A stretch of 56,310 bases of DNA from Elusimicrobiota bacterium (GTDB lineage: Bacteria; Elusimicrobiota; Elusimicrobia; JACQJP01), in assembly GCA_016204975.1 (NCBI GenBank), contig JACQJP010000030.1, forward strand, positions 1 to 56,310, given 5' to 3'. Position numbers and translations under genes: made by a program. Positions 44,733-55,120 of this stretch are shown here, piece by piece (positions within the stretch are counted from its first letter, which is position 1; the number at the start of each line of letters is the position of its first letter). Below the pieces are notes generated by a model that made no database searches, was not told where the DNA came from, and saw only the letters and a program-made list of their open reading frames with translations.

Positions 44733-45764
44733 GTGTTTTTGTTGCTTCTTGCTCTCCAAACATTTTTTCTCTCTTGCGCGTGGGCTTTTTTCCCCGACTC
44801 CCCCTTCTCCAGGGATGCGGCGGGAACCACCTCCGCCGGCTTTCTAAAAATCCCCGTGGGGGCTCGGGCGGTGGCCATGGGCGAGGCCCAAGTGGCCGCC
44901 GTAGAAGGGTCGGAATCCATCTTTTGGAATCCGGCGAGGTTGGTTTCCGTTCCGCGTCTTTCTGAATCCGGTTCCGAGGGGCTTCCTTCCTGTGGGACCC
45001 GACTACGGTCGGGGAGTGCCGGCTCCACATGCTCTTGGGATCCGGCCTCCTCCGAGGTTTCCTCCAGCTACAACGCTCTTTTGGAGACCACCTTTCAAGG
45101 CACCCTGTCCTACGCCCGCCTTTTATCTGAGGAAAATGCTTTGGGTGTGGGATGGATTTTCTTTTCCCAGGATTCCATCGAGTCCTTCAATACGGTGGGG
45201 GATCCCACGGGAGATTTTACCCCCTATGATTTTTCCCTGGCGGTGGCCTTGGCCCGCGCCTTTCAGACCTTTTCAGCCGGGGTGACTCTAAAGGGAATTC
45301 GCTCCAAGATCGCAGGGGAGTCCGACACGGGGTTTGCGGCAGACATCGGTTTTTTTCTTCCTAAGATGGACGAATATGGGAAGGTGGATTTTGGGGTCAG
45401 CTTGATGAACCTGGGCCCCGAGTTTGGTTTGGGCAGCGAGAAAGACCCGCTTCCCTTCCGGGCTCGGTTTGGGGGGGCCATCCATTTTAGCCCTCAGCTC
45501 ACGGCGGCCTTGGATCTGAATCTTCCGGCGGACAACAGCCCCTTTGTGGCCCTGGGGGCGGAGTATTTGCTTCTGGATTCTCAGGAGTTTGGCATGGCGC
45601 TTCGGGCTGGATTTAACTCGGGAAACCTTCGAGGCATCGAGGGTTTTTCGGGAATCTCCGCTGGAGGCGGTTGGAGGGTGAGGCGATTTTCTTTAGATTA
45701 CGCCTGGAATCCCTTTGGAGACTTAGGAAGCACCCACCGCGTCAGCCTCTCCTATCGTTTTTAA
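44733..45764 (+). CDS. PorV/PorQ-like (UPF0164) outer-membrane protein, second copy
   Basis: AGFLKIPVGARAVAMGEAQVAAVEGSESIFWNPARL; terminal HRVSLSYRF; GTG start. Confidence 0.8.
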   Translation: MFLLLLALQTFFLSCAWAFFPDSPFSRDAAGTTSAGFLKIPVGARAVAMGEAQVAAVEGSESIFWNPARLVSVPRLSESGSEGLPSCGTRLRSGSAGSTCSWDPASSEVSSSYNALLETTFQGTLSYARLLSEENALGVGWIFFSQDSIESFNTVGDPTGDFTPYDFSLAVALARAFQTFSAGVTLKGIRSKIAGESDTGFAADIGFFLPKMDEYGKVDFGVSLMNLGPEFGLGSEKDPLPFRARFGGAIHFSPQLTAALDLNLPADNSPFVALGAEYLLLDSQEFGMALRAGFNSGNLRGIEGFSGISAGGGWRVRRFSLDYAWNPFGDLGSTHRVSLSYRF

Positions 45765-46066: not shown

Positions 46067-49000
46067 ATGAATAGAGGTTCCATCTGGTTTAAGGGGATTT
46101 CAGTTGTTTTATCCGGGGCGCTGGTTTTGACCGCACCGGGTCTGGGAAGCTATGAAGCTCTGGCGAGGGCCGTTGCCGCCAAACAGGCTCCCGCAAACCT
46201 TGTGGTGGGAGGGGTCTCTCCCGTGGTTTCGTTTTATGGAGGAAGATTGGCCTTGCCGAGAGTCATTGCGTTGGATGGCATGTTTCTAAGTCCTGCCTCC
46301 ATTTCCAATGGAAAACTTCAGTACATCTCCCTGGAACCGGCTCAGGTGGAGAAGATGGGGATTGGGCCGAGCGTGTGGACTGCGGAGAAGTTGGCGGTTG
46401 CTGAGAAACAGGCGGCGGAAATCTGGGCGGAGGTCCAGCGGGATCCTGTCGCGGCGGAGCTGGGTGATCTGGAGCGCGAGACCCCGGGTTTTAGGGAGAT
46501 GATGAACTTGGTGGCGGCTCAACAGGAAGGGCAAGGGAGGGGAAAAGACCTTGGGGAGTCCTTGCACGCCTCCGCCGTTCTCTTTGACCGCAACCTTCGC
46601 GCGAACCAATCTCCCGCGATCCCTGCTATTGTGGCAGCCGGTCAAGATTCGGAAGGCGTCCGGGGCGGTGTCAGCCAAGGACGAAAGCCCAAAACTCCGG
46701 GAAGACCGGGGAATCCCGGCGGGCCCTCGGTTCCGCGACCGGGTCCTCTGGGGAATGTCTATGTGACTTTGGAGGTGCGCATTGCTCGTGTTACGGCCCA
46801 TATTAAGGATTTGATTCAAGCTAAGCTCAGGCAGTTTGAGCCTAAGTTTCAATTGGGTTGGAATGGGGACTATGAGGTTCTTGATCGGAATTGGGGTCCA
46901 TTTCCTCAGGCTAGGCAGTCTTTTATTGTTCGCGTCACGATCCCCAGGTTCCAACTGATAGATTTTGGAACGGCTCTGGGAGACCCCGGGCGGAATGTGC
47001 AATTTTTCAAGGGACGGCCCACTGAGCCGATTGAGGTTGTCAAGCAGAGAAATCAAGACCGGCTGTTTAAGATAGCGGGGGTGCATGCCATTGGCATCGA
47101 AACGGTGGACGCCCTGGTCTGGGCGCAGGGAATCTTTGGGTTCAGCAAAGCCATCCGTGTTGAGTTCGACTCGGAGCGAACTCTCCGACGCGCTCTTTTT
47201 CCCAGACACGCTTCTTCAACCCAGTTCCTTCCTTACCAGTTGGAGGGCTATCCCGTGGTGGCCGGGGTTTCCAAGCCAGCAGTTCTGCAGGGACCTGGGA
47301 GTCCAGGGGCGGCTTCGGTTCCTCGCGCAGGAGCTATTTCCCCGATTCTGCTTAAAGAAGCGGCGGATAAGATCGTGGCTTTGGATGTCAGGATTGAGAA
47401 GGTGGCGTTCCTTTATAGAGGGCCGAAGGGGCGGTTGAGTGGACCGACTGTCCTGGAGGTGTACCTGAAGTCTTCTGCGAGCGATCCCTTCGAGACTGCG
47501 GAGGTCAAGGGAATTGTTCAGGAAGCTATCGCCCAGAAGAGTGATCTTAACTGGCTTAATTCTATAAATGTCGGGGTTTATGGGCTGGAGGAGATACGCA
47601 GCCAGATGATTCAGTTCTGGGCGGACTCCATAGGTTCCAGGACCGAGAAATCCAAGATTCTGGCTAGACTGGAAGAGTTTAAGGACACCCCGGATACGCC
47701 CCAGCCGGCGTTGTCTTTCCTGGAGAAGCTCCAGTTTGCGGTGGAGGCAATCCCGGATGGCGAGAAGTTCCAGGAGCGCAGGAAGGAGTTGACCGAGAGG
47801 TTGTGGCCGGTCATACGGTTTGCCAAGACCCTGGAACAGTTGGAGAGTGAGTTCAGCAAGCGAGTTGAGGAATTTATCGCCACATTGCCTCCAGCGCCGC
47901 ACTTCGGAGATTCCTCTGGTTCTGGGCCTCGAGATGGCCAAAAGGGGATGACGAAGATTAAGTCCCTGCTCCTTTTTGGAACAGCCTTGGCGGCTTTGGC
48001 GGTGGTGCTGCCTTTAAGCGCGGCGGATGGCGTTGTTGCGCCGGTCTGGCTCTCTGGCATCAACATTTGGAGCGCTGTTGCGGGAGTGTCGGCTGCCGCT
48101 ATCGTCGGCACGCTTTACTTTGGAAATCAGGAGCAATCCTATAGCTCCGGCGGTTGGCGGGATCATGAGGCCTATGGTTCTAGCGGCGGCGATCCCTTCC
48201 AATTCTTCCAAGACTTTTTGGTAGTTGTCTTTGGGGTTCTTTTTGTCGGTTTAGGGGGGGCTTCCCTCCTCACCTATGGTTTGGCGATGCAGGGGACCCT
48301 TGCGCCCTACTTTATTGCCATTCCCTTGGTTTTTGGCGCTGTGGGATTGTGGCGTGGAATTAGCCTCTCTGCAAAGAGATTTCCTCAAGAATACCCACGA
48401 AAGTCCTATCAGGCTATCGGACTTTTTGGGGGCGCGGCAGCTGGTTTGGCTCTTGCCGCGATTTTCTGGATCTTTGCTTCGGGAACCCCTGCTTCCGCCT
48501 CCATCGGTTCCCTGGGGGTGAGCCTGCCTTTCTTGGCTGGTTTGGCGTTTGTTGCCGGCAAGGGCTCAAGTCCTGAAGATGTAGATCCGTCTCGTTTACC
48601 CATTGAGTTTGCAGCAGGGATTTCTGCGGAGGATGGCAACCTCTTTCTGGCGGTCATTGCTCTTGAGAAGAACAAAGGAAAAATCTCTGAATTCATCCAG
48701 AGTCTGGGGCTTCCAGCGGAGGAGCTTAAAACTGCGAAGCTGGTGGTTGTGGGTTCGTGGTCTGAGTATGAAGCCAACCCCCCCTCGTTTGGTTTTGATG
48801 TTGAACTGCGCAGCGGAAAAGATGCTGGTACTATTTCTGCGCACTTGGTGGTCAGGGTGGATGACCAGACAAAGGAGATCGCGCTGGATATCCCGGAGGT
48901 GGTGACGGTTGAGACTGATGAGGAGATCCGGAAGCGGATTTTGGAGGAGCTTAGGAAGGAGGGGTCTGTAGAGACGGCGAAGGTGGTCGAGGCCAATTAT

Positions 49001-50908
49001 GGCTTGAAGGATCCCCAGTTTCTGCCGCCGGCAGAGCCTCCCAGCCTGACCTTTGTGCTTTCCCCGCGGATTATAGTGAGTTTTACCTTGAATGGAGAGA
49101 GCCCAACGGGTCTGGGCTTTAAGACTTTCTTTATCTCTGACGCGGCGACTTCCAGAAGGGAGTTTATCTCTGCTGGGGCGGTGTTTGCTAACTATGATCC
49201 CAAAACTCAGGAACTGTCGCTGATCGCTGTTCCCAATGAGTCGGCTGCTTACGTTGGAAATAAGCTGTCCGGTGAAGAGCTTGAACAGCTTCCTGCGTTT
49301 CTCACCAATGTGAGGTTGGCGTTGGATGACAACGGCAAACTGGCCTATAGGAAAGATAAGTTCTCCGGGATTCAGGATTCTCCAAGAAATGTTTGGGGTA
49401 TCGTCAATGACCCGGAGGGTCGCTTCGCCCGGTGGCTTTTGGGGGCGACGACAGAGAGGGATCTGGATCACTTGGCAGAATTGGGCACTGGTGGAATTTT
49501 GGGGGAGCATAACGCCTTTCTGACTGATCTTTCCTACCCTAGGGACCGCATGCCCACCAATGAAGATGTCGGAAACTACCCCCCTGTTTTTGATGGAGTC
49601 GGGGTCTTAGAGGAGCTGACCGGGAAAGGGCGGAGAGTTTTTCCGGGCCTAGCCGGCTACGTGCAGAACTTTAAGAAGCGGCTTCCCCCTCCTAATACGG
49701 AGCCGGCGATTTCCCCTCGAGATGGCCAAAAGGGGATGACGAAGATTAAGTCGCTGATCCTTTTTGGAACGGCCCTGACGGCTTTGGCGGTGGCGGTGCC
49801 TTTAAGCGCGGCGAACATTGGGAATTTTACTCTTCTGGCAACGGCCTCCGGCCCGGGTCTGTTTTTTGTCACCTGGGGATTTATCACGTTGGCCGGCGGG
49901 CTGCTTGGCTATTTTGTATTCCCGAACAAAAGTAGTGGGCGTAGCGATTGGGTCGGTTTTCTGGTGGGGGCCATCCTAGGAGCTGTTGTTGGCCTTCTTA
50001 TTGCCGGGATTGTTTCTGCGGGGGTGGATAGAGCTTCGGCTGCTGCAGCGGGTGGGGCGGTGAGCTTGGCGGCGACCGCCATCTTTGGTTGGCCCTCCAC
50101 GGAGGCTTTAAGGACCGCCAACTCGGAGGAGCACCGAAAGATTGAGGTTGCCATTGAGCGTGCTAAATCGGGTAGCCCCTGGGCCCGCTCAGTCTTGGAG
50201 GAATTTGAGAAGCAGGTGGAGTGGTTCTGGAATCACATCTGGATCGCGGATGACCTAAGCCTGGCCTATCACGCCAGGGCCTTCGGCTCAGCTTATCGCA
50301 ATCCCAACATCGTCTTGACCGCCGACACCATCCGGAACGGCTCCTGGGCCTTCATCGCCTCCAAACTGGTTCGGGAGGCAACTTATTTCACCAAATACTT
50401 TGGGTGGGATGATCCCAGAACCTCCAAGAGGGAAGATATCCCCGCCTCGGTGGAGAAGCTGGCAATTGCCTATGTTTATGATGTCTTAGGCTTTGCCCAG
50501 ATGACTCAGGGCAATTCCAGGTCTTGGGCCACCAATCTGGACCATAACCATAAAAACAAAGGCACCTGGTATGAGTGGTCCTATTATGAGGCCTTAAGGC
50601 AGGTTCTCTGGCTTCCCTTCATAGATACTCGGTTCTTTACCCACCTTAGGGACTTTACCGCACTCGAGGTCAACCGGGACCCCGCCTTTCAGTTTTCTCT
50701 CTATGAAAGATGGACCGGAAAATATTGGAGACCGGGCAGCCCGGAGCACGAGCAGCCTATTCCGGACAACGTTCCACGTCTGGACGAGGCTACCTATAGG
50801 GAGGCGACCAAAAAGATTTATGGCCAGGATGGAAATGGGGACAATAACTCCACAGAAAATTTCCTGGGCCTGGTGCGGGATTGGTTTTTAAGAAACGACC
50901 CTCAGTGA
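46067..50908 (+). CDS. Giant modular exported/membrane protein (about 1613 aa)
   Basis: RBS AGGAGG before ATG 46067; MNRGSIWFKGISVVLSGALVLTAPGLGSYEALA leader; Gly/Pro linkers; two internal signal-like modules; TM clusters. Confidence 0.85.
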   Translation: MNRGSIWFKGISVVLSGALVLTAPGLGSYEALARAVAAKQAPANLVVGGVSPVVSFYGGRLALPRVIALDGMFLSPASISNGKLQYISLEPAQVEKMGIGPSVWTAEKLAVAEKQAAEIWAEVQRDPVAAELGDLERETPGFREMMNLVAAQQEGQGRGKDLGESLHASAVLFDRNLRANQSPAIPAIVAAGQDSEGVRGGVSQGRKPKTPGRPGNPGGPSVPRPGPLGNVYVTLEVRIARVTAHIKDLIQAKLRQFEPKFQLGWNGDYEVLDRNWGPFPQARQSFIVRVTIPRFQLIDFGTALGDPGRNVQFFKGRPTEPIEVVKQRNQDRLFKIAGVHAIGIETVDALVWAQGIFGFSKAIRVEFDSERTLRRALFPRHASSTQFLPYQLEGYPVVAGVSKPAVLQGPGSPGAASVPRAGAISPILLKEAADKIVALDVRIEKVAFLYRGPKGRLSGPTVLEVYLKSSASDPFETAEVKGIVQEAIAQKSDLNWLNSINVGVYGLEEIRSQMIQFWADSIGSRTEKSKILARLEEFKDTPDTPQPALSFLEKLQFAVEAIPDGEKFQERRKELTERLWPVIRFAKTLEQLESEFSKRVEEFIATLPPAPHFGDSSGSGPRDGQKGMTKIKSLLLFGTALAALAVVLPLSAADGVVAPVWLSGINIWSAVAGVSAAAIVGTLYFGNQEQSYSSGGWRDHEAYGSSGGDPFQFFQDFLVVVFGVLFVGLGGASLLTYGLAMQGTLAPYFIAIPLVFGAVGLWRGISLSAKRFPQEYPRKSYQAIGLFGGAAAGLALAAIFWIFASGTPASASIGSLGVSLPFLAGLAFVAGKGSSPEDVDPSRLPIEFAAGISAEDGNLFLAVIALEKNKGKISEFIQSLGLPAEELKTAKLVVVGSWSEYEANPPSFGFDVELRSGKDAGTISAHLVVRVDDQTKEIALDIPEVVTVETDEEIRKRILEELRKEGSVETAKVVEANYGLKDPQFLPPAEPPSLTFVLSPRIIVSFTLNGESPTGLGFKTFFISDAATSRREFISAGAVFANYDPKTQELSLIAVPNESAAYVGNKLSGEELEQLPAFLTNVRLALDDNGKLAYRKDKFSGIQDSPRNVWGIVNDPEGRFARWLLGATTERDLDHLAELGTGGILGEHNAFLTDLSYPRDRMPTNEDVGNYPPVFDGVGVLEELTGKGRRVFPGLAGYVQNFKKRLPPPNTEPAISPRDGQKGMTKIKSLILFGTALTALAVAVPLSAANIGNFTLLATASGPGLFFVTWGFITLAGGLLGYFVFPNKSSGRSDWVGFLVGAILGAVVGLLIAGIVSAGVDRASAAAAGGAVSLAATAIFGWPSTEALRTANSEEHRKIEVAIERAKSGSPWARSVLEEFEKQVEWFWNHIWIADDLSLAYHARAFGSAYRNPNIVLTADTIRNGSWAFIASKLVREATYFTKYFGWDDPRTSKREDIPASVEKLAIAYVYDVLGFAQMTQGNSRSWATNLDHNHKNKGTWYEWSYYEALRQVLWLPFIDTRFFTHLRDFTALEVNRDPAFQFSLYERWTGKYWRPGSPEHEQPIPDNVPRLDEATYREATKKIYGQDGNGDNNSTENFLGLVRDWFLRNDPQ
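47927..48025 (+). repeat. 99-bp internal module A (PRDGQKGMTKIKSLLLFGTALAALAVVLPLSAA)
   Basis: Near-identical nucleotides at 49715 and 53909. Confidence 0.85.
49715..49813 (+). repeat. 99-bp internal module B (PRDGQKGMTKIKSLILFGTALTALAVAVPLSAA)
   Basis: Same module in the same gene, same frame. Confidence 0.85.
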
Positions 50909-50949
50909 AAGAGGCATAGAAAAGGAAAAAACAAAAGGAGAAAAGAAAA

Positions 50950-52698
50950 ATGAGAAGACTTGCGATTCTGTTTTTAGCCTGGGGTGTGGTAGCGTTTTCT
51001 CAGGAGAATGTGCGGGCAGGGGCGGATGTGGACTGCGGTCCTGCGGAACAAATCAGGGCCCTTTTAAAAGAGGTGGACTCTTGTCATGGTGTTTCTCAGG
51101 GGCTGGATTCCGTTTTTTCCTCTTGTGTGGCTCCCCTTCAACGGCTTCTTAAAAAAGCAGCTGCGGGAGCCGCCGAGGATTCTGAAGATTTATACGGGCT
51201 GACCTCCGAGGCGATTAAGGATTTTGTTTGTGTGCAGTATTATAATTCTTCTTCCGGCCAGTCCCTGTATGTTAGAACTTGTGTGACGGACTACACCAAA
51301 AGGGTTCGCGCTACTTTCCCCCCGGCCTGTCGTCAGAAAGAGGAGCAGTCTGAGTCCAGGCACACGGCCCAAAGTTTCCAGCTCCGGGAGGTCGCGGTTC
51401 CGGTTGCTTCCTTGCAGGCGGCGGTTGCCTCCGGGGTCAACTTTGACAACTCCGGGTCCTTCCCGGCTTTCTCGGGGCTTCTCGCCTCCAATTTTACGGC
51501 GGGCAGTTTTTCGAGCCTCAGTCTCCAGGGCCCTCCGGGAAGTAAGCCTCCTCAGGGACCTCCAGGCAGTAAACCCCCCCCGCAGGGGCCACCCGGAAGC
51601 AAGCCGCCTGGCGGAGATGATAAGCCTCCTTCCTCCTCGCCCCCTCCCTCCCGGCCTACCCCTGTATTCGTGGCCCCGGCGCCTCCGCCGGCTTGGTGGA
51701 ACACGGTGGATGAGGAGGAAATCCTCTGGCTGGATGGGCCGTTTTCCGAGCGGGACCTCAGTTGGCAGCAGGGTTCCTGGGATGGGGAAACGCGTTGGGT
51801 GACGGGATGGTACCCCTGGCCCAGGACCTTCGTCAGCGTGGGGCGCGAGGCGGTCTCCGAGAAGTTTATCCGCACCCCGGAAAACCAGGATCAAACCTTC
51901 CGCGTCAATCTGGTCAGCCGGCAGACGGTGACGGTCAAACAGTGCTACTACCGGGCCTACTATGATGTAGAGTGGAACAGCTTCGAGGGAGCCTGGGTGG
52001 GGGTTGGCCCCAACGGCGGTTTTCGCTTCTATCGGTCGTCCTGCTACCGCTCCACCAACTATGGTCCGCGTGAGGAGGATCTCACCCGCCAGGTGTCGGT
52101 GCGGTTCGCTTCCTCTGGAAAACCTATCCTGCCTTGGGAGCAAGAGCTCTTCCGCGTCACGTTTGACGGGCGCAATGTGGGCGTTTTCCCTGTTAATACG
52201 AATAGTGGCCCATCCTATGAGTATCAACCTATCTCCAATGACGGCTACTCGGTGGTTTTGCAGCCTGGAAGAAAGCTGCTTAACTCCCCTTTTCCAGGCG
52301 GAGTAAATCTCCGGGTGGAGCCCACCTCTGATGGCAGGGGTTTTCGCCTCCAGGTGATTGACTGGTGGACAGATTACTACGATAAAATCCCTGGGGAAAC
52401 GCTGGAGCTTTACGTATTGATTGAGGATGCAACCGGCTTGCAGCGCGATCTCTTTGAGTACAGTAAGCGGAATCCTCTGCGACTGGTCACCTATCAGCAA
52501 AGAGACATCCAGAAATCTTCAGGTGAAGCGGAGAATCCTAAGACTTTGGAGATTCGCGGGCCTTGGCAGGCAGATTGGCTTTCTCCTGGGAGCAAGCCCC
52601 GCAGGCAATACAATGTGACCTGGAGTTTCCGGAGAACGGGAAGCAACATCTCCAATGGCTCCTGGATAGACAAGGGGAGGATATTCGTTCAGTTCTAG
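50950..52698 (+). CDS. Secreted protein with Gly/Pro collagen-like linker
   Basis: Signal peptide; GPPGSKPPQGPPGSKPPPQGPPGSKPPGGDDKPPSSSPPPSRPTP linker; Cys-containing N-terminal region. Confidence 0.7.
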   Translation: MRRLAILFLAWGVVAFSQENVRAGADVDCGPAEQIRALLKEVDSCHGVSQGLDSVFSSCVAPLQRLLKKAAAGAAEDSEDLYGLTSEAIKDFVCVQYYNSSSGQSLYVRTCVTDYTKRVRATFPPACRQKEEQSESRHTAQSFQLREVAVPVASLQAAVASGVNFDNSGSFPAFSGLLASNFTAGSFSSLSLQGPPGSKPPQGPPGSKPPPQGPPGSKPPGGDDKPPSSSPPPSRPTPVFVAPAPPPAWWNTVDEEEILWLDGPFSERDLSWQQGSWDGETRWVTGWYPWPRTFVSVGREAVSEKFIRTPENQDQTFRVNLVSRQTVTVKQCYYRAYYDVEWNSFEGAWVGVGPNGGFRFYRSSCYRSTNYGPREEDLTRQVSVRFASSGKPILPWEQELFRVTFDGRNVGVFPVNTNSGPSYEYQPISNDGYSVVLQPGRKLLNSPFPGGVNLRVEPTSDGRGFRLQVIDWWTDYYDKIPGETLELYVLIEDATGLQRDLFEYSKRNPLRLVTYQQRDIQKSSGEAENPKTLEIRGPWQADWLSPGSKPRRQYNVTWSFRRTGSNISNGSWIDKGRIFVQF

Positions 52699-52792
52699 CA
52701 CCCTCCACAGAATTTCGGGTACCAGCCGGGCGCCCAGAGGGCGCCAGCGTGCTAGCCGTAGTTTTTAACGGTCGGCAGGTGGAAGTTTCGTT

Positions 52793-55120
52793 ATGAACAG
52801 AGATTCCAACTGGCTCAAGTTGGTTTCAGTTGTTTTGTCCGGCGCTTTGATTCTGACTGCACCGGGTCTGGAGGCTTACAGCGCCTTTGCGGCGGGAACG
52901 GTGGGAGCCAAACAGGTTGGCCTATCTGGCCGCAACGTCCGCGCTCCTGGAGGGGGAGTGGTTTCCCTACAGGTTTCTGATGTTTCCTGGCAGACGCCGG
53001 GCATAGATCCCACAGCCTTCAACGCCATCCATGCCGCCGCTCTACTTCAAAAACCCCAAGATTCAGGGATTTCTTTCGGCCGGATGGGGGAAGATGCGGT
53101 GGGATGGGGCCTGCCTGGAAGGATGGAGCTTGTCCCGGATCTGAAAAGAGCTTTTGGGCTGCTCAATCCTGCGGAGGATGACATAGGGATGGTCCCTGAT
53201 GCTCCCGGGAAGGTCCGGGGGCAGGAGGCAATCCAGGAAGGTTCCCGGGTGGACCTAGGTGGTATTGTGGGTGAGGTGAGAGATGCTGTTGCGGAGAAAG
53301 ACATTGGGAAGCAATATGTCCGCGTCGGAAAACCTTACCAAAACAGTGTCCCTTTGCCTGCCGCGGTGGTTTTCCCGGGGGCGGTACTGAGGGATTCGCG
53401 GCCCTCCGGTAAGATGAGCCTTTCCGGACAAAAGCCTGGAAGCGCCTCAGAGGGTAGTTCTTTTGGGGGTGCGGATCCCGCAAAACCCGGGGCGCCGGGA
53501 AGGCCGGGAGATCCAGGGAAACCCTCGGTTCCACGGCCGGGTCCTTTGTGGAGCGGCTTTAATTTCGACTTTCGGTATACGGAAGGAATCTCGAGGTATC
53601 GCAGACGAATTCTCGAACAGGCTTTTGGCAAGGATAGGGGGAAGGTGATTCGGTTTGGCCGAGAAACCCTGGGAATTCCAGAGAGGGAAGAGGTGACATT
53701 TAAGGTTTATTACTTCGGATGGCCTGCTAGTTTGCCGGAAAGAGGGCCTGAGAGCCTTATTTACTACAGCATTGTGGCCCTTCAGAAAGGGAGCCTATTG
53801 AGCTATGGGGCTTTTGGAGCTTTAGTAGATTCCGAGAACCAAACCGTGTTTCAACTGATTGATGATAGATTGCAGAAAGGTTCTTCGAAAGATTCCTCCA
53901 GTCCCAGGCCTCGAGATGGTGAAAAGGGGATGACAAGGATTAAGCCGCTGATCCTTTTTGGAGTGGCCTTGACGGCCTTGGCGGTGGCGGTGCCTTTGAG
54001 CGCGGCGAATTTGACTGTTTCTGTTGGATTCGGCGGGTTGTGGCTTCGAGATCTGGCCATGTTGGCTACAGTGATGGCTGTGATGCTGGCTGGGATTCGT
54101 TGGTTGGATCACCAGGAGACGAGCCTGGTTAAAGGGCTTTCCGTGCGGTTTTTCCTGTTGGTGTTGGCTCTAGGTGCCGGTGCGCTGGTTGTTCGTTTTA
54201 TTGATTGGTCCTGGATTGCCGCTTCCGGTGCCTCTCTGTCTTGGCTGGGATTTCCCTTGGCGGGTTTGGCGTGGGTTGCGCAAAATGGATCGGAGTCCGA
54301 CGGCCAGCCTGAATCCGCGAGTCCTCTTCTTCATGACAGAATCGTGGAGGGTTTGAAGAAGGCTGGATTGAATCCCGAGGATTTTGTGACGGATATTCGA
54401 AAACTTCTTGCGCCGGGGGCGGAGAAAAATATTCTGGAGCGCGGTTGGAAGAAGGAGGAATCCTCTCAAGCAGGGTTGCGAGTCTATTCTTTAGGAGATG
54501 CTGTTACCTTTAAGACGGGTCAGCGAGCGACTTACGCTTTGAATGGCTTGGTTTACCTGACCACTTTTGCGGGCCCCGTCATGCAAGCCATCGCCGTGGA
54601 TTCCTCTGGCAAGGTCGTTTTCAACGAGATCCACCGCCTGGATCGAGGGGAGGCGGGTGTTGCGGGTGAATTCACGTCTGATGTTCAGGTGAAGGATCAA
54701 TCCTCGGCCGCATCGGCTCAGAATAGGGGTTCAAGCGGGGAGCTAATAGAGGTTCCGGTGGGGTCTTTTTTGACCTTACTGGTGTTTGTGGCGTGGGCTG
54801 GTTTTCTAAGTCTGCATCCAAACCCCGTACTGCCCACTTGGGTCTTTGTTCTATTTTCTCTTGGGGTCTTTTTTTCGGGCGCTGTCTTTTCTGCTTCGGT
54901 TGCCTTTCGAGCCGTTCGGTGGTTCAATCGGGGATTCTATAAAATGTTACTTAGGAGCAGAGCTCCGGATGATCCGCTCCCTTCCGATGAAGAGATTGAT
55001 AATATGAATTTCAAAGGTTGGGCGGTTGGGGCTGCCATCGCCGCTTTCTTTGTGGGAGGATATTTAGGGCTGAGTTACTTCATGTATCTGTTCAAGTCGC
55101 TGTTTGCGGCAGGCCCGTAG
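52793..55120 (+). CDS. Modular exported/membrane protein, paralogue of the 46067 gene
   Basis: MNRDSNWLKLVSVVLSGALILTAPGLEAYSAFA; PGAPGRPGDPGKPSVPRPGPL linker; third copy of the 99-bp module; TM clusters. Confidence 0.85.
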   Translation: MNRDSNWLKLVSVVLSGALILTAPGLEAYSAFAAGTVGAKQVGLSGRNVRAPGGGVVSLQVSDVSWQTPGIDPTAFNAIHAAALLQKPQDSGISFGRMGEDAVGWGLPGRMELVPDLKRAFGLLNPAEDDIGMVPDAPGKVRGQEAIQEGSRVDLGGIVGEVRDAVAEKDIGKQYVRVGKPYQNSVPLPAAVVFPGAVLRDSRPSGKMSLSGQKPGSASEGSSFGGADPAKPGAPGRPGDPGKPSVPRPGPLWSGFNFDFRYTEGISRYRRRILEQAFGKDRGKVIRFGRETLGIPEREEVTFKVYYFGWPASLPERGPESLIYYSIVALQKGSLLSYGAFGALVDSENQTVFQLIDDRLQKGSSKDSSSPRPRDGEKGMTRIKPLILFGVALTALAVAVPLSAANLTVSVGFGGLWLRDLAMLATVMAVMLAGIRWLDHQETSLVKGLSVRFFLLVLALGAGALVVRFIDWSWIAASGASLSWLGFPLAGLAWVAQNGSESDGQPESASPLLHDRIVEGLKKAGLNPEDFVTDIRKLLAPGAEKNILERGWKKEESSQAGLRVYSLGDAVTFKTGQRATYALNGLVYLTTFAGPVMQAIAVDSSGKVVFNEIHRLDRGEAGVAGEFTSDVQVKDQSSAASAQNRGSSGELIEVPVGSFLTLLVFVAWAGFLSLHPNPVLPTWVFVLFSLGVFFSGAVFSASVAFRAVRWFNRGFYKMLLRSRAPDDPLPSDEEIDNMNFKGWAVGAAIAAFFVGGYLGLSYFMYLFKSLFAAGP
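53909..54007 (+). repeat. 99-bp internal module C (PRDGEKGMTRIKPLILFGVALTALAVAVPLSAA)
   Basis: Conserved with modules A and B at nucleotide level. Confidence 0.85.

Follow-up and report, generated by a model that had tools for sequence, protein, structure and literature searches.

Recent in-frame copying of a predicted signal-anchor module between two neighbouring large proteins of an Elusimicrobiota bacterium, and the class-wide leader family to which they belong

A segment resembling a signal peptide occurs three times in the interior of two neighbouring open reading frames of an uncultured Elusimicrobiota bacterium. These frames, named here A and B, lie in a stretch of 56,310 nucleotides (contig JACQJP010000030.1), referred to below as the window. 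The initial annotation had noted three features common to A and B: their leader, Gly/Pro linkers and, in three copies, a module of 99 bp. This layout was confirmed, positions included, and is given below together with ORF C, located between A and B. Membrane segments were located by Kyte-Doolittle hydropathy and oriented by K/R counts.

46067-50908, plus strand: ORF A, 1613 aa, comprising the leader, soluble blocks, the membrane block of module 1, soluble block 2, the membrane block of module 2 and a C-terminal domain.
46067-46177, plus strand: leader of A, a class-wide SPG-Y leader and predicted Sec signal peptide with an AxA end; profile E=3e-16 (a profile seed).
46697-46750, plus strand: Gly/Pro linker of A, common to B, PGRPGNPGGPSVPRPGPL.
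47291-47338, plus strand: second, degenerate linker of A, GPGSPGAASVPRAGAI.
47927-48025, plus strand: module copy 1, in A, PRDGQKGMTKIKSLLLFGTALAALAVVLPLSAA.
47966-48559, plus strand: membrane block headed by module 1, with six hydrophobic segments; predicted N-in, positive-inside score +12 to +14.
48578-49711, plus strand: soluble block 2 of A, for which the leader proteins compared yielded no detectable relative.
49715-49813, plus strand: module copy 2, in A, PRDGQKGMTKIKSLILFGTALTALAVAVPLSAA.
49754-50089, plus strand: membrane block headed by module 2, with three clear segments and one weak; N-in score +7.
50093-50896, plus strand: C-terminal domain of A, 31-45% identical to signal-peptide proteins of other Elusimicrobia; no Pfam match; contains REATYF.
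50950-52698, plus strand: ORF C, 582 aa, predicted to be exported.
52793-55120, plus strand: ORF B, 775 aa.
52793-52903, plus strand: leader of B; profile E=7e-17 (a profile seed).
53495-53548, plus strand: Gly/Pro linker of B, PGRPGDPGKPSVPRPGPL.
53909-54007, plus strand: module copy 3, in B, PRDGEKGMTRIKPLILFGVALTALAVAVPLSAA.
53948-54271, plus strand: membrane block headed by module 3, with three clear segments and one weak; N-in score +5 to +6.
54314-54637, plus strand: domain X of B, which recurs in proteins of relatives.
54758-55081, plus strand: three C-terminal hydrophobic segments of B, from hydropathy.

A and B had been called paralogous giant proteins. Paralogy holds in patches (the leader, one linker and the module), the remainder giving no alignment; as far as alignment can tell, A and B are shuffled blocks and not whole paralogues. 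"Giant" is a relative term, since both are under the 5000-aa limit used for huge proteins whereas leader-headed ORFs of relatives reach 5,000-17,700 aa. Scans of A, B and C against Pfam and NCBIfam gave no match above curated cut-off, in line with the initial annotation, which had recognised no known family in A and B.

The three module copies are 85-93% identical, with 92, 84 and 89 matches over 99 nt in the pairwise comparisons. Their edges are abrupt: ungapped 33-nt windows show 18-45% identity outside the left edge and 88-100% inside it, and 88-94% inside the right edge against about 27-30% beyond it. When synonymous codons were shuffled with local usage, matches averaged 65-70 and never exceeded 83, so that none of 20,000 shuffles reached the observed value for any pair. 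Nucleotide identity is thus higher than the shared protein sequence requires, which indicates that the module was copied recently or has been kept alike by gene conversion, the two possibilities originally put forward. The leaders of A and B are also closer than this expectation (63 of 78 matches, P=5e-5). The genome-wide search suggested at the outset recovered exactly three copies in the 1.5-Mb assembly, at both the DNA and the protein level. No other gene of this genome carries the module at its N-terminus, so a donor gene was not seen in the assembly (about 87% complete). Among 235 genomes of the class, all from other families, there was no convincing copy, the best outside match having E=0.0036 over 15 residues. 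A copied internal helix was also sought in the leader genes of relatives, where the repeats consisted in the main of the leader and a few stretches of linker. On these comparisons, real and recent in-frame copying has taken place, and what was copied is a predicted signal-anchor cassette of neighbouring, apparently fused membrane proteins.

Such copying could in principle reflect a short mobile repeat, that is, an interspersed DNA element inserting in frame into coding genes. Short repeats of no fewer than three families (with 56, 33 and 14 matches) do occur in the genome, many of them inside ORFs. These families, however, occur on both strands and in many contexts, whereas comparison of the module with RPE/REP-like short interspersed repeats showed no such behaviour: its three copies lie on one strand and in one frame, and occupy equivalent functional positions in the two neighbouring genes. 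A mobile origin is therefore distinctly unlikely. As to the repeats themselves, the largest family is a 62-70-bp element with 56 genome copies on both strands, 42 of them inside ORFs of at least 150 aa; within the window it is found at 44989-45048 on the minus strand, inside a PorV-like ORF. By eye, the gap between C and B (about 52697-52756) resembles a copy of the second family, for which the C50 member gave the 33 genome matches.

What, then, does the module encode? Each copy has a Met, a basic n-region, a core of about 15 residues, a Pro at -5 and an SAA end. The earlier description of an internal signal-peptide-like segment followed by transmembrane clusters proved apt, and can be made more precise: every copy is the predicted first helix of a 4-6-segment polytopic block, with an N-in pattern of K/R residues that is stable to the hydrophobicity cut-off. 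The second helix follows after just 14-18 residues in all copies, as in a normal hairpin. On hydropathy and charge, the module is thus better regarded as the first helix of ordinary-looking polytopic blocks, within a class-wide set of seemingly fused large proteins.

The module Met (47948, 49736 and 53930) had also suggested internal translation initiation, which would yield separate membrane proteins from the same mRNA. Every copy has it in the right place, shortly behind an AAGGGG tract. However, the G-run AAAAGGGG directly abuts the ATG (spacing about 0), too close for a good ribosome-binding site, and several relatives of the same architecture have no Met ahead of the equivalent helix. Internal initiation is accordingly not favoured, and we consider it very unlikely.

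The textbook signal-peptide anatomy of the module raises another possibility, namely that A and B are polyproteins, signal peptidase I cutting after SAA, or cuts being made in the Gly/Pro linkers, so that one ORF gives several pieces, exported or membrane-bound. Scored with a cleavage-site matrix self-trained on 161 predicted signal peptides of the same genome, and contaminated by hydrophobicity, the modules reach 9.2-10.2 (training median, 11.0). These values are in the signal-peptide range, but are also attained by 10-19% of ordinary transmembrane helices; hence the matrix does not separate modules from such helices. In two of the three copies the highest score falls elsewhere than at SAA, and the close second helix again argues for a hairpin. 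With the same matrix, the first helices of leader proteins were not more cleavage-like than later ones (P=0.16). Cleavage after SAA is thus possible, and the polyprotein reading doubtful, even though it would remove a topological conflict described below and finds some support in a homologue of A.

This homologue, in genome G001, has the same leader and the same next gene, C; the order A-C is conserved in two relatives, G001 and G010. In G001 the C-terminal domain directly follows a single signal-peptide-like helix (...LALFGVDAAMA/MP, the slash marking the putative cut), whose AMA end speaks for the polyprotein reading. All relatives of the C-terminal domain come from Elusimicrobia or Elusimicrobiota MAGs, which places the window in the class Elusimicrobia, and in several Elusimicrobia the domain is a separate protein with an N-terminal signal peptide. 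In G010, domain X of B forms the C-terminus of a protein that starts with a predicted signal peptide; elsewhere it is repeated in a relative's open frame of 10,571 aa. The separate relatives of the C-terminal domain, the G001 helix and the recurrences of domain X suggest that the internal signal-like helices are, or replace, the N-termini of once-separate genes. The frame of 10,571 aa occupies a whole contig of 31,716 bases (G011:C42; L011, L012) and shows, by eye, subtilisin-like and M48-like stretches together with repeated two-helix hairpins.

The C-terminal domain of A was also compared with zincin metallopeptidases. An AlphaFold model of moderate confidence (mean pLDDT 64) gave no significant Foldseek match (best E=1.9); 13 of the 17 weak matches were metallopeptidase entries, none of them significant. 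The HExxH zinc motif was absent from the domain, REATYF standing at its likely position, and assignment as a zincin metallopeptidase is not supported.

The leader reaches far beyond this locus. A profile built from ten seed sequences was run against 235 Elusimicrobia genomes and found the leader, xLSxSLILTSPGLGxYxAxA, in 65 of them, with up to 16 matches per genome. The E-values listed above for A and B are partly circular, as both are seeds, and a single-sequence search with A alone retrieved B and three other proteins of the same genome. At the loci inspected, the leader begins with basic residues, continues with some 15 hydrophobic ones and ends in (T/L)(A/S/L)PG...YxAxA. The ORFs that it heads measure from several hundred to 17,704 aa and include MFS_1, Peptidase_M48 plus MFS_1, TonB_C, ATP-grasp and VWA/TPR/DUF58 domains; from their domain content, the multi-domain ones look like fused genes. 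In the longest case (G002:C5; L239-L241), a single open frame spans 17,755 aa, or 17,704 aa when counted from the leader (E=2.5e-5), and carries 82 hydrophobic segments. Another frame, of 3,067 aa (L227; G231:C14), combines VWA, TPR and DUF58 in the manner of a fused Bat-type operon, and may represent a whole operon as one protein; it has an internal signal-peptide-like helix with a GGPVLA/QT end. A literature search found no description of the leader family. The copied cassette is local, and the leader family, with the topology conflict considered next, is the more general result.

If the leader acts as an ordinary signal peptide, the linker behind it should be outside; a first helix that is N-in is at odds with this. 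In both A and B, the first helix behind the long linker is N-in (+4 in each). Across the family, 44 first helices behind the leader are N-in, 7 N-out and 8 neutral (44 of 51 informative; binomial P=1e-7), a count that is indicative, drawn as it is from the strongest matches with orthologues included and from simple hydropathy, so that P should not be read literally. The conflict thus appears, on this indicative count, to run across the class Elusimicrobia. Leader-headed proteins with cytoplasmic-looking enzyme domains, one with an HAD-like FDFDKT motif seen by eye (L236, 6940-10272) and one with ATP-grasp by Pfam (L225), deepen the puzzle. Each of several options could account for some of the cases: processing between leader and membrane block, an unrecognised helix in the linker (some proteins have weak candidates), a frustrated topology that is tolerated, or failure of the leader to export the sequence behind it. 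The "topology switch" first proposed for the module is possible only inasmuch as the topologies demanded by leader and module conflict. Resolving the conflict would reveal either unusual insertion or hidden processing.

A further way out would be to place all soluble blocks outside, the module helices being N-out stop-transfer segments inserted against the positive-inside rule and the module a convenient hydrophobic helix. This would agree with the leader as a normal signal peptide. Moreover, if the weak last segments are counted, modules 2 and 3 head blocks with an even number of helices, as would be expected were all soluble parts on one side. Nevertheless, the charge pattern is N-in in every block, and the single helix before the same domain in G001 gives odd parity. 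MFS proteins have a fixed N-in fold, and MFS fusions of the family would have to keep it. Such an N-out arrangement is unlikely.

The reading that we prefer, with a probability of about 0.55, is that A and B belong to the leader family as composite membrane proteins in which a copied signal-anchor module re-starts membrane insertion. The Sec-type leader would start export of the first block. Each 99-bp module would then be a signal-anchor helix that begins a new 4-6-segment polytopic block, re-starting insertion within the chain and acting like the retained N-terminus of a formerly separate gene; the parts destined for the outside would include at least domain X of B and, in A, the C-terminal domain. 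Recent copying of the short DNA cassette, both within A and between the two genes, would be the work of gene conversion or local recombination. Against this reading count the leader, which predicts the stretch before module 1 to be outside although the first helix is N-in, the even helix numbers, the unseen donor gene and first helices no more cleavage-like than later ones. A bolder reading, which we regard as rather doubtful, extends cleavage to the whole class: the leader would export the first block, the chain would be cut at linkers or modules, and later blocks would re-enter the membrane by their own N-in signals. If so, Elusimicrobia would make polyproteins throughout the class, with the copied module as the visible cassette of this system and the leader/first-helix conflict as its signature.

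Little is understood of the giant and fused proteins found in Elusimicrobia and Omnitrophota. The class-wide leader offers a handle for finding and grouping them, and the copied module illustrates a way in which such proteins may acquire further membrane blocks. Comparison with known systems helps to place both. The parts of the literature consulted describe Elusimicrobiota and Omnitrophota as rich in huge proteins, those of Omnitrophota with many transmembrane helices (PMC11573180; PMC10066038). Leader-headed ORFs resemble the proteins described there in belonging to the same phylum or superphylum, in being very long and poorly annotated, and often in having many transmembrane helices and extracellular-looking domains; the sections consulted describe neither a shared leader nor a copied internal signal cassette (PMC11573180; PMC10066038). 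The frame with 17,704 aa from its leader and the 10,571-aa frame containing domain X strengthen the likeness, whereas A and B are far below 5,000 aa. Leader and module both have the n-, h- and c-regions and the AxA/SAA-type end of Sec signal peptides cut by signal peptidase I, except that the module is internal with more helices behind it, and that the conserved PG..Y.A.A end of the leader exceeds cleavage needs. In YSIRK and ESPR signature signal peptides, a conserved motif marks one group of large surface proteins. The leader may be analogous in marking a group of large proteins, although its sequence is different and its motif is in the c-region and not in the n-region; we know of no receptor for this motif. 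Finally, in the Bradyrhizobium cytochrome b/c1 precursor FbcH a single ORF holds two proteins, an internal signal sequence is present and cleavage is established. While FbcH involves no module copying, and cleavage in A and B is putative, it would by analogy be the best precedent for the polyprotein reading of the module.
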